DNA from: a bacterium
Lineage (GTDB): Bacteria; Cyanobacteriota; Vampirovibrionia; Gastranaerophilales; Gastranaerophilaceae
Length of the DNA: 43,663 nucleotides
Direction of reading: 5' to 3'
Assembly: GCA_017471365.1 (NCBI GenBank)
Contig: JAFUUC010000021.1
Coordinates: forward strand, 1-43,663
This document shows positions 1 to 43,663 of this stretch, one piece after another. The stretch's first letter is position 1, and each line of letters begins with the position of its first letter. The notes under the pieces are model-generated. The model did not search any database. It was not told where the DNA came from and saw only the letters and a program-made list of their open reading frames with translations. The translations under genes and the position numbers were made by a program.

Positions 1-448
1 AATAATTAGCCAGGCAAAAGTTCCAACACCGGTAAGTTGTAGTGATTATATAGGTAAATCCGGCTACGAAGCAATCAAAAGCTGCTACTACAATAACAAT
101 AATGACTACTGGGTAGGAGCCATGGTAGAGTGTAAAAATCAGGGTGGCAGATTACCAAACGCCTCTGAACTGGCTAAAATTGCTCAGGCAATATACAATG
201 ACAACTCAATCAGCGAATCGGAAGATTACAACGAAACAGACCCAACAACAAACGAATGGGATAAATCTATCACAGCCAAACTGGGCATAGAAGACTCCGC
301 TTCGTGGTTCGGCCTTTGGGGTGTCCTCGAGGACGACTCGGGCAGTGCGTGGTACCACAACTTCGGCAGTTCGAGTACGGCTTGGTACCACGGCTACGGT
401 CGCGGCAGCGTTCGCACCACTATCCGTGTTGTTTGCGTAGCGGATTAA
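1..448 (+). CDS. Pilin-like protein with hypervariable C-terminus, 5' partial
   Basis: The reading frame is open from base 2, so this is the last 148 codons of a gene that begins outside the window. It matches the C-terminal part of the complete prepilin-like protein at 6427-7563 (shared DYWVGA, GG.LP.A.EL, LW motifs) and is very close to the right-end copy at 43089-43663. The fold is probably C-type-lectin-like, as judged from the Gly-Gly-x-Leu-Pro, Trp and terminal Val-Cys-Val pattern; that is inference. The last 41 codons before the conserved Cys (311-433) are GC-rich and differ strongly from the right-end copy, while the sequences on both sides are almost identical. The gene's stop codon overlaps the stop of the convergent aminotransferase gene by 3 nt. 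The likely role is a surface-exposed, possibly diversified pseudopilin or pilus-tip protein. Confidence 0.8.
   Translation, partial: IISQAKVPTPVSCSDYIGKSGYEAIKSCYYNNNNDYWVGAMVECKNQGGRLPNASELAKIAQAIYNDNSISESEDYNETDPTTNEWDKSITAKLGIEDSASWFGLWGVLEDDSGSAWYHNFGSSSTAWYHGYGRGSVRTTIRVVCVAD
311..433 (+). other. Candidate diversity-generating-retroelement variable region
   Basis: Forty-one codons between a conserved Ser-Trp-Phe and the terminal Cys-Val-Ala-Asp. Aligned with 43104-43223, about 23 of 40 residues differ (for example Gly/Tyr, Val/Asp, His/Arg, Tyr/Arg, His/Cys). Fixed Leu-Trp, Trp, Asn-Phe, Ser-Ser and Trp positions remain between them. Most variable codons end in C or T, and replacements are at first and second positions, as expected when AAC/AAT codons of a template are adenine-mutagenised. 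Several C/T third-base differences show that the two copies are not from one identical template. No reverse transcriptase or template repeat was found in the window. Confidence 0.55.
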
Positions 449-6426: not shown

Positions 6427-7563
6427 ATGAAAAAATCACACATGCCACCACTTGCCTCTAAAGCAGGTTTTACTCTCGCAGAGGTCCTGATCACCCTTGC
6501 AATCATCGGCGTAGTCACAGCGTTGACTCTGCCAACATTGATCGCAAAAGTGAATGAAAAAGTCGACGGTAATCAGAAAAAAGTCACTGAAGCTAAATTA
6601 ATTCAAGGACTTAACATGCTCGACTTACATGGAGGGATTAACAACACCTATAGTAGTACTGCTGAATTTGTTGAAGAACTATCTAAATACATGAAGATCA
6701 CAAAAATATGTGACGGTACTAATTCAACGTTTAGTGAATGTATTCCATATAGTGAAATAACATACAACAACGGTGCGGAAGATAAAACTGTTGAAATTAC
6801 TAAACTAAACACAGCAGATGCATTAGGACTCGGAACAGTAACTGATGAAGAAGAATTTATGGCACCAGTAGCAATGGTATTAGGTGACGGTACTCCTATG
6901 TTTCTTACTTATAATAAGAAATGTATTTCAGATCCTGATAGTATAAAATCTGATAACAAAAAGATACATAGTTGTGTGGACGGACTGTATGACTTAAATG
7001 GTAGCCGCATGCCAAATAAAATAGGTAAAGATTTGACTGCTATGAATAAAGCTTCAATTACTATCGCCGAAGGACCTGCGGTATTAGCGACTGTTGGTGA
7101 TTATAAAATAATTAAACAGTTAGACACACCACCGGCAATGGATTGTTCTAAGTACTTAGGAAACTCCAAGTATCCGGAGATCGAACACTGCCCATATGAA
7201 GGAGAAACCGATTACTGGGTAGGAGCGTTGGTAACGTGTAAAGAAATGGGTGGTCACTTACCAAGTACAGCCGAGCTGACAAATATTGCGGTGGAAGTAT
7301 TTCCTAAAATTAATGTTAAAGGCGGTGATACTTACACATCTGGAAGTGTGACATGGGATGAAGAAATGGCGAATAAAATTAGTCCAGATGCTCCTTTAGA
7401 TATCCATTTATGGAGTTCTAGTGAATATTCTAGCGATAGTACAAGAAGTTTGACTAGATGTTTTCTCGCAAGTTCAACTATGTTTTCTGGTACTATGGAA
7501 AGTCATGTAACAAGAAATATTAGTGATTCAACACTTGGGTATATTTGTCTGAGTGATAATTAA
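6427..7563 (+). CDS. Prepilin-like protein with C-terminal lectin-like domain
   Basis: A 378-residue type IV pilin-like or pseudopilin protein. Residues 1-14 form a prepilin leader, cleavage is expected at Gly14-Phe15 of AGFTLAE, Glu19 is the conserved Glu5 of the mature protein, and a hydrophobic helix runs to about residue 35. The prepilin peptidase and assembly machinery are not in the window. The C-terminal 140 residues match the partial genes at both window ends (DYWVGALV, GGHLPSTAEL, LWSSSEY). Here the C-terminus is AT-rich and ordinary in codon use, so it shows no sign of the hypervariable segment of its paralogs. AGGAGA lies 6 nt before the ATG. Confidence 0.88.
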   Translation: MKKSHMPPLASKAGFTLAEVLITLAIIGVVTALTLPTLIAKVNEKVDGNQKKVTEAKLIQGLNMLDLHGGINNTYSSTAEFVEELSKYMKITKICDGTNSTFSECIPYSEITYNNGAEDKTVEITKLNTADALGLGTVTDEEEFMAPVAMVLGDGTPMFLTYNKKCISDPDSIKSDNKKIHSCVDGLYDLNGSRMPNKIGKDLTAMNKASITIAEGPAVLATVGDYKIIKQLDTPPAMDCSKYLGNSKYPEIEHCPYEGETDYWVGALVTCKEMGGHLPSTAELTNIAVEVFPKINVKGGDTYTSGSVTWDEEMANKISPDAPLDIHLWSSSEYSSDSTRSLTRCFLASSTMFSGTMESHVTRNISDSTLGYICLSDN

Positions 7564-32767: not shown

Positions 32768-33757
32768 TTAGTGGATTTCTAAAAATTTATACCCATTAAA
32801 ATGAATCATATGTTCTGGTGTTTCCGCTATCCAAACTTCTGTTTCCCAAGCGATATCTAATGCCCATTTCCGAAAATCTTTTTTAGTCAAAAATGTAGTT
32901 AGGAATATAATTTCAGCAGAGCAATTTTTCAATAATTCTTTTAATTTGCGTACTCTTAATTCACTCATTGGGCCTGCACTATGAACGGCTTCACATAAGA
33001 ATAATAAATTTTTATCTTTGCTATAAGCAATTACATCCGGAAGTTCATCATGCTTTAATTCAAAACAATTTAATGTTGATAGCCCTTTTTCGTCCTTATA
33101 TAAAAATTTATCAGAAGTATCTCCCACATATAAAACTTGAGAATTAAAACCAAATTTTGCAAGAAAAGTCTCTATTATTTCTTTTTGCAACATATTATGT
33201 TCACCATAAGATAATTCTATATTTTCACCAGAAGGTAATGAGACCGGTATTTTTTGTAAATTTCTTTTGTGTTCCATTTCTTCTTTAAGAGATTTATTTT
33301 TTAGCAAAAAAATTGCTAATTCTTCATCCCAAATCTGTGTATTATATGTTTTTAATAAGTTTGCAAATAAAGGATTTAAGCCATAACCTCTAGTAGGATT
33401 ATTTGTTGCTTTTGCTTCTATTAATGAAGAATTATGAACAAGACCAGCAGCAACTAATCTAATTAAATCTTTTCTTCTTATATCATCATAAGAACCAGAA
33501 GAAATTCTTTCTGAATAATTTGCATTTTCGTACTCAATAATATCTCTTGTTTTTAAAAAATGGTTATCATTCGTTGATAAAGCTTCATTAAATGATGTCT
33601 TTATATTTCCAACAGCTAATAATGCTAATACCATTCTTTCCTTTCTCCTATCAGATAAATCATCAAGGGGAATTCCAACAGCATTTAGTATATCTAAAGT
33701 ATTAAATATTAAAGTTTGAAGTTTTGCTCTTTTATTACCAGTCAAATTTATTTTCAC
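32768..33757 (-). CDS. BsuBI/PstI-type restriction endonuclease
   Basis: A 329-residue type II restriction enzyme. The N-terminal half is the helical BsuBI/PstI N-terminal domain. The C-terminal half holds the nuclease: GDTSDKFLY (212-220), LPDVIAY with Asp241 and CEAVHSAGP with Glu256, a PD-(D/E)xK-like arrangement. Classical members cut CTGCAG. The start is GTG at 33757, overlapping the methyltransferase stop, with GGAGGC 5 nt upstream, so the enzymes are made in a coupled way with the methyltransferase first. The partner here is a cytosine-5 enzyme, unlike the adenine methyltransferases of PstI and BsuBI, so the recognition site is not predictable. Confidence 0.85.
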   Translation of the reverse strand: MKINLTGNKRAKLQTLIFNTLDILNAVGIPLDDLSDRRKERMVLALLAVGNIKTSFNEALSTNDNHFLKTRDIIEYENANYSERISSGSYDDIRRKDLIRLVAAGLVHNSSLIEAKATNNPTRGYGLNPLFANLLKTYNTQIWDEELAIFLLKNKSLKEEMEHKRNLQKIPVSLPSGENIELSYGEHNMLQKEIIETFLAKFGFNSQVLYVGDTSDKFLYKDEKGLSTLNCFELKHDELPDVIAYSKDKNLLFLCEAVHSAGPMSELRVRKLKELLKNCSAEIIFLTTFLTKKDFRKWALDIAWETEVWIAETPEHMIHFNGYKFLEIH

Positions 33758-34770
33758 ATTGCCTCCAAAAGTGTTAATTCTTCAGAATAATAATTATTTT
33801 TACTTTGTTCACACAAACCATAATAAGCTTCTTTTATCGCGAGGGCTATTTTGTATGCTAAAAGGGGAGGAACAGCATTTCCTATTTGGTTAAATCTTTC
33901 TGTTTCATTTCCACAAAATTCAAACCAATCCGGGAAACTTTGTAACCTTGCAGCTTCCTTATGTAATAATCGTCTTCTGCGACCATCTTTTAATTTAATT
34001 CTTTGCATATCGCTGGTAGCCCCGGCTAAATTTCGGCAAGTTAACGTTCTTGCCGGTTTATCAGGGTGCAAGTCCCTGGGAACTTTACAACAAGAAGCTT
34101 TTTCATATTTAGCGATATATTCATCTTGTGATTTTGTTAAAAATTTACTACCTTCAGGTGTCGTATACATTAAATCTCCAATTGCATCCTCAACACAAAC
34201 TCGTCTCATTTCTTTTTTAGGGAGGGAAAAACTGTTTTTATGACCTACAACAATAAGCCTTTCTCTATTTTGAGGAACACCGTAATTAACCGCATTTAAA
34301 CACTCAAATGTTATATTGTAACCAAGTTTTTTTAAGTCTTTCAATATCAATTCAAAATACCACCTATGCGAATACATTAAATTCCTCACATTTTCAAACA
34401 TAAAAAATTTAGGTTTTACAGTTTTTATAGCATCAATAAAGATAGGAAAGCCATCTCTAGCATCCCCCATTCCTTTTTGGACTCCCCTTATGCTAAAAGG
34501 CTGACAAGGTGGCCCTCCAATTATAATATCTGCATTAGGATATTTATAACCTACAGTTAATTTTTCATTATAACAAGTTCCGGATAAGTTTTTATTATAG
34601 GTATCAGAAGCCGCTTTATTCATCTCATAACCAACTGTCTTAAAACCAGCAGCTTCAAAACCAAGTGACAAGCCGCCACAACCTGCGAATAAATCTAACA
34701 CAAGTAGTTCACTATTGCTATTATCAGGCTTTAATAATTCGTTTATATTTGATAAAAAACTCATTTCCAT
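33754..34770 (-). CDS. DNA (cytosine-5) methyltransferase of the restriction-modification pair
   Basis: A 338-residue C5-cytosine methyltransferase. Motif I is DLFAGCGGLSLGF (26-38), motif IV GGPPCQPFS with catalytic Cys89, motif VI ENV (126-128), motif VIII QNRER (167-171), and motif X GNAVPP near 310. The target-recognition region lies between motifs VIII and X (TLTCRNLAGATSDM). It protects the host from the endonuclease whose gene overlaps it by 4 nt. The promoter is TATAAT 15 nt before the ATG, giving a leader of about 8 nt. The pair lies next to a tRNA-Arg gene and a frameshifted gene, consistent with acquisition by transfer. Confidence 0.93.
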   Translation of the reverse strand: MEMSFLSNINELLKPDNSNSELLVLDLFAGCGGLSLGFEAAGFKTVGYEMNKAASDTYNKNLSGTCYNEKLTVGYKYPNADIIIGGPPCQPFSIRGVQKGMGDARDGFPIFIDAIKTVKPKFFMFENVRNLMYSHRWYFELILKDLKKLGYNITFECLNAVNYGVPQNRERLIVVGHKNSFSLPKKEMRRVCVEDAIGDLMYTTPEGSKFLTKSQDEYIAKYEKASCCKVPRDLHPDKPARTLTCRNLAGATSDMQRIKLKDGRRRRLLHKEAARLQSFPDWFEFCGNETERFNQIGNAVPPLLAYKIALAIKEAYYGLCEQSKNNYYSEELTLLEAM

Positions 34771-43088: not shown

Positions 43089-43663
43089 TTAATCCGCTAC
43101 ACAAATAACGTGAATAACGCTATCACTGCGGCTACCAAGATTGCAACGCCACTCCGTGTAAGAACTACTGAAATTGCGGTCCCACGAACCGTTCGAGTCG
43201 TTTTCGAGGTCACTCCAAAGGTAGAACCACGAAGCGGAGTCCTCTATGCCCAGTTTTGCAGTAATGGATTTGTCCCAGGTTAATCCGTTTTTGTAATTGT
43301 ATTCTTCCGATTCGCTGATTGAATTGTCGTTGTATATTGCCTGAGCTATATTTGCAAGTTCACTTGCATTTGGTAATCTGCCGCCTTGATTCTTACACTC
43401 AACCATAGCTCCTACCCAGTAGTCATTGTTGTTGTTGAATTCGCATGATTTGATTGCTTCGTAGCCGGATTTTCCAATGTAGTCACTACAACTTACCGGC
43501 GTTGGAACTTTAGCCTGGCTAATTATCTTAACTCCACCTATCTCTATATAAGAATCTTCAAGTTTTGCTCCATTGAAAGAAATAAGGTCGTTTCTTGTGT
43601 GTTCATCGCCACCATACAAGTTTGGTTTTCTGGAGCCATTAAAGTCATAAATACCCGCTACAC
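43089..43663 (-). CDS. Pilin-like protein with hypervariable C-terminus, 5' partial
   Basis: The frame is open to the window edge, so the N-terminus is missing; the upstream codons read AGIYDFNGSRKPNLYGG, which matches the YDLNGSRMPN of the complete paralog at 6427-7563. A TTG at 43619 is internal and not a start. It carries the shared CSDYIGKSGYEAIKSC, NDYWVGAMVECKNQGGRLP and LGIEDSASWF. From there its last 40 codons before the conserved Cys differ sharply from the left-end copy, then both end in CVAD. The protein is probably an exported pseudopilin with a lectin-like head. Confidence 0.8.
   Translation of the reverse strand, partial: VAGIYDFNGSRKPNLYGGDEHTRNDLISFNGAKLEDSYIEIGGVKIISQAKVPTPVSCSDYIGKSGYEAIKSCEFNNNNDYWVGAMVECKNQGGRLPNASELANIAQAIYNDNSISESEEYNYKNGLTWDKSITAKLGIEDSASWFYLWSDLENDSNGSWDRNFSSSYTEWRCNLGSRSDSVIHVICVAD
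43104..43223 (-). other. Candidate variable region of the right-end pilin-like gene
   Basis: Forty codons that align to 311-433 with one codon less. Residues replaced are mostly encoded by NNC or NNT codons. Scaffold residues Leu-Trp, Trp, Asn-Phe, Ser-Ser, Trp, Gly and Val are kept. The bases just before it (conserved 31-nt block with one mismatch) and after it (last 12 coding bases identical) frame the variation sharply. Confidence 0.55.

Follow-up and report, generated by a model that had tools for sequence, protein, structure and literature searches.

One of the closest known diversity-generating retroelements (DGRs) to the locus described here is that of Bordetella phage BPP-1 (mtd, avd, a template repeat (TR) and brt). 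Its cassette is compact, the target lies in cis, and the reverse transcriptase (RT) is recruited by a structured spacer on the 3′ side. The BPP-1 DGR shares with our locus adenine-specific changes from TR to variable repeat (VR), a 3′ VR in the gene of a C-type-lectin-type protein, and bAvd (PMC12875486). Most descriptions of DGRs involve a single target or a handful, and work on cellular genomes has reported 121 diversified genes across 52 cyanobacterial genomes (PMC7517822), 15 targets at nine loci in Thiohalocapsa PB-PSB1 (PMC10907252) and six targets in a Treponema denticola isolate (PMC4891356). According to PMC12632263, which cites Macadangdang et al., DGRs also diversify type V tip pilins in Bacteroides. 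A literature search found no paper that joins Gastranaerophilales with retroelements, and a search on DGRs and pilins found no system of many prepilin-like targets.

We analyzed one whole contig (G000:C18; 43,663 bases, hereafter the window) of a 1.81-Mb assembly of 109 contigs. Its genes resemble those of Gastranaerophilales, and records of this species or its genus derive from assemblies of ruminant forestomach samples. The window starts and ends within two inverted copies of the same pilin-like gene, and we are highly confident that positions 311-433, near its left end, lie in the VR of a DGR target gene, and that the DGR acts in trans with two templates (TR1 and TR2), bAvd and prepilin-like targets. 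The features of the window are as follows.

2..448, + strand: left family member, 148 aa, constant and variable domain; 5′ end lost at the contig end
300..445, + strand: left-copy VR; aligned to TR1, 24 of 42 template adenines and 6 of 95 other bases changed, 9-nt insertion (Fisher p=2e-10)
6427..7563, + strand: complete paralogue, 378 aa, with a prepilin N-terminus; C-terminus a poor match to both templates
43089..43661, − strand: right family member, 190 aa; 5′ end lost at the contig end
43092..43234, − strand: right-copy VR; aligned to TR1, 17 of 42 template adenines and 15 of 95 other bases changed, 6-nt insertion (Fisher p=0.002, one-sided)

Elsewhere in the window, at 32768-34770, a DNA cytosine methyltransferase-like ORF (33754-34770) overlaps a 329-aa ORF that resembles a restriction partner; both were named by eye.

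Variable repeats, templates and mutation spectrum

The first-pass annotation had picked out 311-433 as a sharply variable segment at a pilin-like C-terminus. Alignment of the two copies confirmed this, with 23 of 40 aligned residues differing, one gap, and changes that are mostly non-synonymous. The 103 codons preceding position 311 show 9 residue differences plus an indel of two codons, concentrated in a single loop (window 233-256), in line with the ten or so differences counted before. The reported return to near identity on both sides held for the left flank, SITAKLGIEDSASWF, and for the short right flank (CVAD, stop), which are identical in the two copies, but did not extend beyond the stop codon, downstream of which no homology between the copies was visible. 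Aligned to TR1, the full VR extends past this segment on both sides.

The earlier proposal of adenine-specific mutagenesis predicted a template of 100-130 nt that matches at C, G and T and has A at the variable sites. TR1 answers that description, and the left copy, in which over half of the TR1 adenines are changed, carries the expected pattern. The C-terminal tip of a second group of copies (family 2) differs from that of the TR1 group. Its consensus, with A at the variable columns, was written and searched against the genome; TR2 was thus predicted before it was located.

G000:C36:505-648: template TR1, non-coding, intergenic and rich in asparagine codons; reads SWFNLWGDLENDSNNAWNRNFNSSNTEWNNNNRNNNNIRVVCVGD
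G000:C101:30217-30373: template TR2, asparagine-rich; 93% identical to the predicted consensus, clearly above every VR

Downstream of TR1 come a long hairpin rich in G+C, with a T run, and then rpoB. Neither template contains a codon that changes at A could turn into a stop, and the VRs end at the stop codon of the target gene. Many VRs differ from TR1 at 40-60% of adenines and at only 0-6 of 90 other bases. When a VR was assigned to a template at a non-A mismatch of no more than 20%, the 23 TR1-type VRs had changes at 483 of 966 adenines (50%) versus 157 of 2176 other bases (7%), and the 35 TR2-type VRs at 825 of 1705 adenines (48%) versus 308 of 3620 other bases (8.5%). Adenine-specific changes are therefore observed in at least 58 VRs, including those of both contig-end copies. 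Some VRs carry many non-A changes. The left and right VRs differ from each other at 28 of 42 template-adenine columns and 17 of 95 other columns. The C/T third-base differences between them, previously ascribed to distinct templates or ordinary divergence, represent non-template changes that lie mainly in the right copy; judged from its sequence, the right-copy VR is older or more decayed than the left. The complete paralogue at 6427-7563 (23 of 42 adenines and 32 of 78 other bases changed relative to TR2; p=0.11) is probably an old or non-targeted member, as far as its sequence can tell.

Median differences between paralogues in the TR1 and TR2 groups were 16% and 21% in the constant region just upstream of the VR, 9.5% and 5.8% at non-A sites of the VR, and 60% and 51% at its adenine sites. 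This comparison used VRs selected for few non-A changes and so does no more than illustrate the expected pattern. With a covariance model of the template leader (see below), just TR1 and TR2 were found in this genome, and hence no third template. Roughly 1.6 kb of non-coding DNA between a pilin gene and TR2 (L105 17600-18800, on G000:C101) contains repeated GGGAGGGTTAGGGTGGGTGG-type units, and related intergenic repeats also occur at the start of contig C36, ahead of TR1.

A further signature comes from the sequence context of the changed adenines. In the reconstituted BPP-1 DGR, cDNA synthesis opposite the first A of AAC most often inserts A, read as T in the gene, whereas opposite the first A of AAU it inserts C, read as G (PMC12875486). 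The same first-adenine bias is seen here: in 39 well-matched VRs, AAC gave T and G at 196:174 and AAT at 14:54 (p=6e-7). The cells of this test are not strictly independent, although the bias has the same direction in six of the seven AAT columns. BPP-1 also shows an excess of C at the second A of AAC, which was not seen here (0.18 for AAC versus 0.20 for AAT). Since AAC and AAT code for the same residue, selection on the protein is a poor explanation of these spectra. Ordinary divergence of paralogues with positive selection on a binding loop could account for mostly non-synonymous changes clustered in one lectin-fold segment, but it leaves unexplained both the context-dependent outcomes and the existence of matching intergenic templates, one of which was predicted before it was found; we give this explanation practically no credence.

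The prepilin-like family and its variable domain

A protein search of the assembly gave 99 matches, and 94 open frames were extracted from the fetched loci. Excluding the template itself and two fragments leaves 91 copies with the C-terminal domain, or about 95 if three more TR2-like places and the complete paralogue at 6427-7563 are added. A genome of 1.8 Mb thus holds about 90 prepilin-like family members, among them both contig-end copies. By our own count, approximately one third of all contig ends in the assembly lie within 1 kb of a member. The two contig-end copies lack their 5′ ends and with them the prepilin N-terminus, but complete copies are open frames with prepilin N-termini: an FTLAE-type motif is present in 19 long in-contig copies, and Pfam N_methyl scored above its cut-off in all three complete copies tested (window 6427-7563, L010 and L052). 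The prepilin-type carrier that had been proposed is thus supported by signals on complete targets, whereas the display of a variable head on a pilus-like fibre is an inference. No family members were found in a search of viral contigs.

A family of this size, with a pilin-like product and many potential donors, invites comparison with the antigenic variation of Neisseria pilE/pilS, in which gene conversion among paralogues acts without reverse transcription. Conversion may add to the diversity. As the main mechanism it is already contradicted by TR1 and TR2, and we consider it very improbable: it gives no reason to expect a non-coding consensus template rich in adenine, changes limited to the adenines of that template, or a mutation outcome that depends on whether the codon is AAC or AAT, and the complete copies are genes with prepilin signals rather than silent cassettes.

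The lectin-fold C-terminus suggested by the first-pass annotation is supported by modelling. A model of the last 190 residues of the right copy, built from ten sequences, was of medium confidence (pLDDT 61, pTM 0.65) and gave the variable domain a C-type lectin fold. Foldseek returned no match at E 0.001, and its top hit was Mtd of BPP-1 (E 0.06). A second structural alignment retrieved mostly C-type lectin-type folds, namely Bdellovibrio Bd2740 (8oks, Z 8.5), Legionella Lcl (8q4e, Z 6.6), intimin (Z 6.6-6.7) and Mtd variants (Z 5.8-6.0). Most of these values are middling, and the argument rests on their agreement on fold type. The Lcl_C/DUF1566 domains, including the C-terminal domain of Bd2740, are structural matches; the Lcl_C profile match is weak (13.7 bits, far under the Pfam cut-off of 34.9).

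Accessory gene, template leader and reverse transcriptase

TR2 adjoins a bAvd gene, which is in turn followed by secA, and both templates are preceded, by about 90-160 nt, by a hairpin of 60-66 nt.

C101:29837-30175: bAvd gene, 113 aa (PF22296, 48.3 bits; cut-off 40)
G000:C36:285-347, + strand: leader hairpin at TR1, one of the 60-66 nt hairpins, pairing assigned by hand
G000:C101:30494-30556, − strand: leader hairpin at TR2, one of the 60-66 nt hairpins, pairing assigned by hand

The hairpin is common to the template loci of G004, G051, G008 and G032, and in the manually assigned pairing the outer helix covaries, keeping seven of seven pairs in all six hairpins despite differing sequence, with five to seven of seven in the inner helix (shuffle z-scores −2.1 to −6.1). 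Beyond the two in our genome, it was recorded at loci L166, L167, L127 and L104, and it is present upstream of every DGR template found. In 46 genomes of the genus, a model built from the six hairpins gave strong matches at the template loci only; the leader pattern had no match in collections of genome and viral contigs, and a comparison of the template loci with Rfam gave no hit at the gathering score of any family. The hairpin may form a structured leader on the template RNA. Its copy in G008 overlaps with the 3′ end of avd, the place at which a motif in BPP-1 halts reverse transcription (PMC12875486); by analogy, one might guess that the hairpin serves to terminate the cDNA.

The proposed search for a DGR-type RT alongside the template succeeded only for the latter. 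No such RT was found in the assembly (96.9% complete, 109 contigs) with the Pfam profile or with the RT of a congener. Among the 46 genus genomes, strong matches to the RT of locus L102 occur in G004, G051 and G008, with a truncated RT in G052; bAvd matches occur in G004, G051, G008 and our genome, with only a remnant in G052. Related species of the genus share this bAvd, the hairpin at the leader, a template rich in asparagine codons and pilin targets, and possess a DGR-type RT that carries an IGNLTSQ motif and adjoins a pilin. Pilin, bAvd, TR and RT lie within a single cassette in G008. In G051, the contig with the RT and the start of a pilin ends in the 22 nt that open a contig with the continuation of the pilin, in frame, followed by TR and bAvd, which suggests the order RT, pilin, TR, bAvd. 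Our contig C101 ends within the pilin that precedes TR2 and bAvd, that is, where synteny with G051 places the RT, and the missing RT would accordingly be expected just beyond the contig end, in an assembly gap. This is an inference. One of the refuting conditions set in the first-pass annotation, the lack of an RT, is formally fulfilled by this assembly. As the assembly is broken at pilin copies and congeners do have the RT, we regard its absence as not decisive in either direction.

The alternative is a relic, in which a DGR once expanded and diversified the family, the RT has since been lost and the copies are drifting. The absence of an RT from the assembly is consistent with this, as is the state of other genomes of the genus, G044, G021 and G052, which have 27, 10 and 20 family members and no intact DGR RT that we could find. 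Neither RT nor bAvd was found in G044 or G021, and G052 retains the truncated RT and the bAvd remnant. Repeated loss of the machinery in the genus is therefore possible, and G044 indicates that such loss can happen; Treponema denticola isolates likewise include cases of core loss with leftover targets (PMC4891356). On the other hand, several VRs have only 1-3 mismatches to their template in about 95-104 non-A positions, both templates and the bAvd gene remain intact, and the break in C101 falls just where the RT is expected. A relic is thus unlikely but cannot be dismissed. Under the preferred reading, a DGR with its RT in the gap, recent activity is inferred for the least decayed copies; in the absence of read or strain data, present-day activity is not shown.

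The RT in bin RGIG4780 (G061; roe deer reticulum, labelled Alphaproteobacteria) was considered as ours and rejected, because its contig (C67) has a GC content of 42% versus 33-37% for ours and its own TR and VR. This bin holds two same-species contigs identical or nearly identical to ours (L177 and L178, 99.9-100%; the L177 contig is 100% identical over 1986 nt), which are apparently misbinned, and we judge it to be a different organism carrying misbinned contigs of our genome. Its own DGR has a target with a 1659-aa frame (L189) and a duplicated, phage-like RT region (L190 and L191).

Proposed mechanism and comparison with known systems

The DGR interpretation of 311-433 in the first-pass annotation is supported. 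A mechanism is proposed in which an error-prone RT and bAvd would copy the stand-alone template RNAs TR1 and TR2, and the adenine-mutated cDNA would replace the 3′ ends of many unlinked prepilin-like genes. Residues predicted to contact a ligand would thereby change in a head of C-type lectin type, which would be presented on a pilus-like fibre; ligand binding itself is inferred. It is probable, in our view, that some 60-90 unlinked prepilin genes are kept as a repertoire that is rewritten in trans by two stand-alone, leader-bearing templates, and that the cell carries scores of independently randomised heads.

If this is correct, surveys of repeats around RT genes would miss most such targets. 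Targets, and perhaps the RT as well, can be lost from view where contigs break at such families, and counts from metagenome-assembled genomes are likely to be low. With at least 58 targets, the set would parallel in a bacterium the large families of variable surface antigens in parasites, but would be generated by reverse transcription and not by recombination. Two questions become testable: by what means a single RT with its templates locates so many sites in trans, and what advantage scores of variable fibre heads confer on a gut bacterium.

The locus represents a known mechanism, a DGR acting in trans, at an unusually large scale of at least 58 unlinked prepilin-like genes, although the RT and present activity are not shown. 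The largest target counts met in the literature consulted are those for Thiohalocapsa and the cyanobacteria given above. One survey lists a Pseudomonas record with 91 TR–VR pairs, in which a single gene holds 21 VRs; our claim is therefore of an unusually large set of separate target genes and not of a proven record. Unlike BPP-1, the present system has two templates at separate sites, scores of unlinked targets, scant room 3′ of the templates and a structured 5′ leader, and its RT is missing from the assembly. With the cellular DGRs that have remote targets (PMC7517822, PMC10907252, PMC4891356) it shares trans targets far from the core and VRs at the 3′ ends of lectin-fold genes, but here at least 58 targets, all prepilin-like, occur in one 1.8-Mb genome. 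The Bacteroides pilin DGR, insofar as the citing paper describes it, likewise diversifies a fibre component in a gut bacterium, but the pilus type is another one (proteins with prepilin signals in our case) and the target set described here is far larger.
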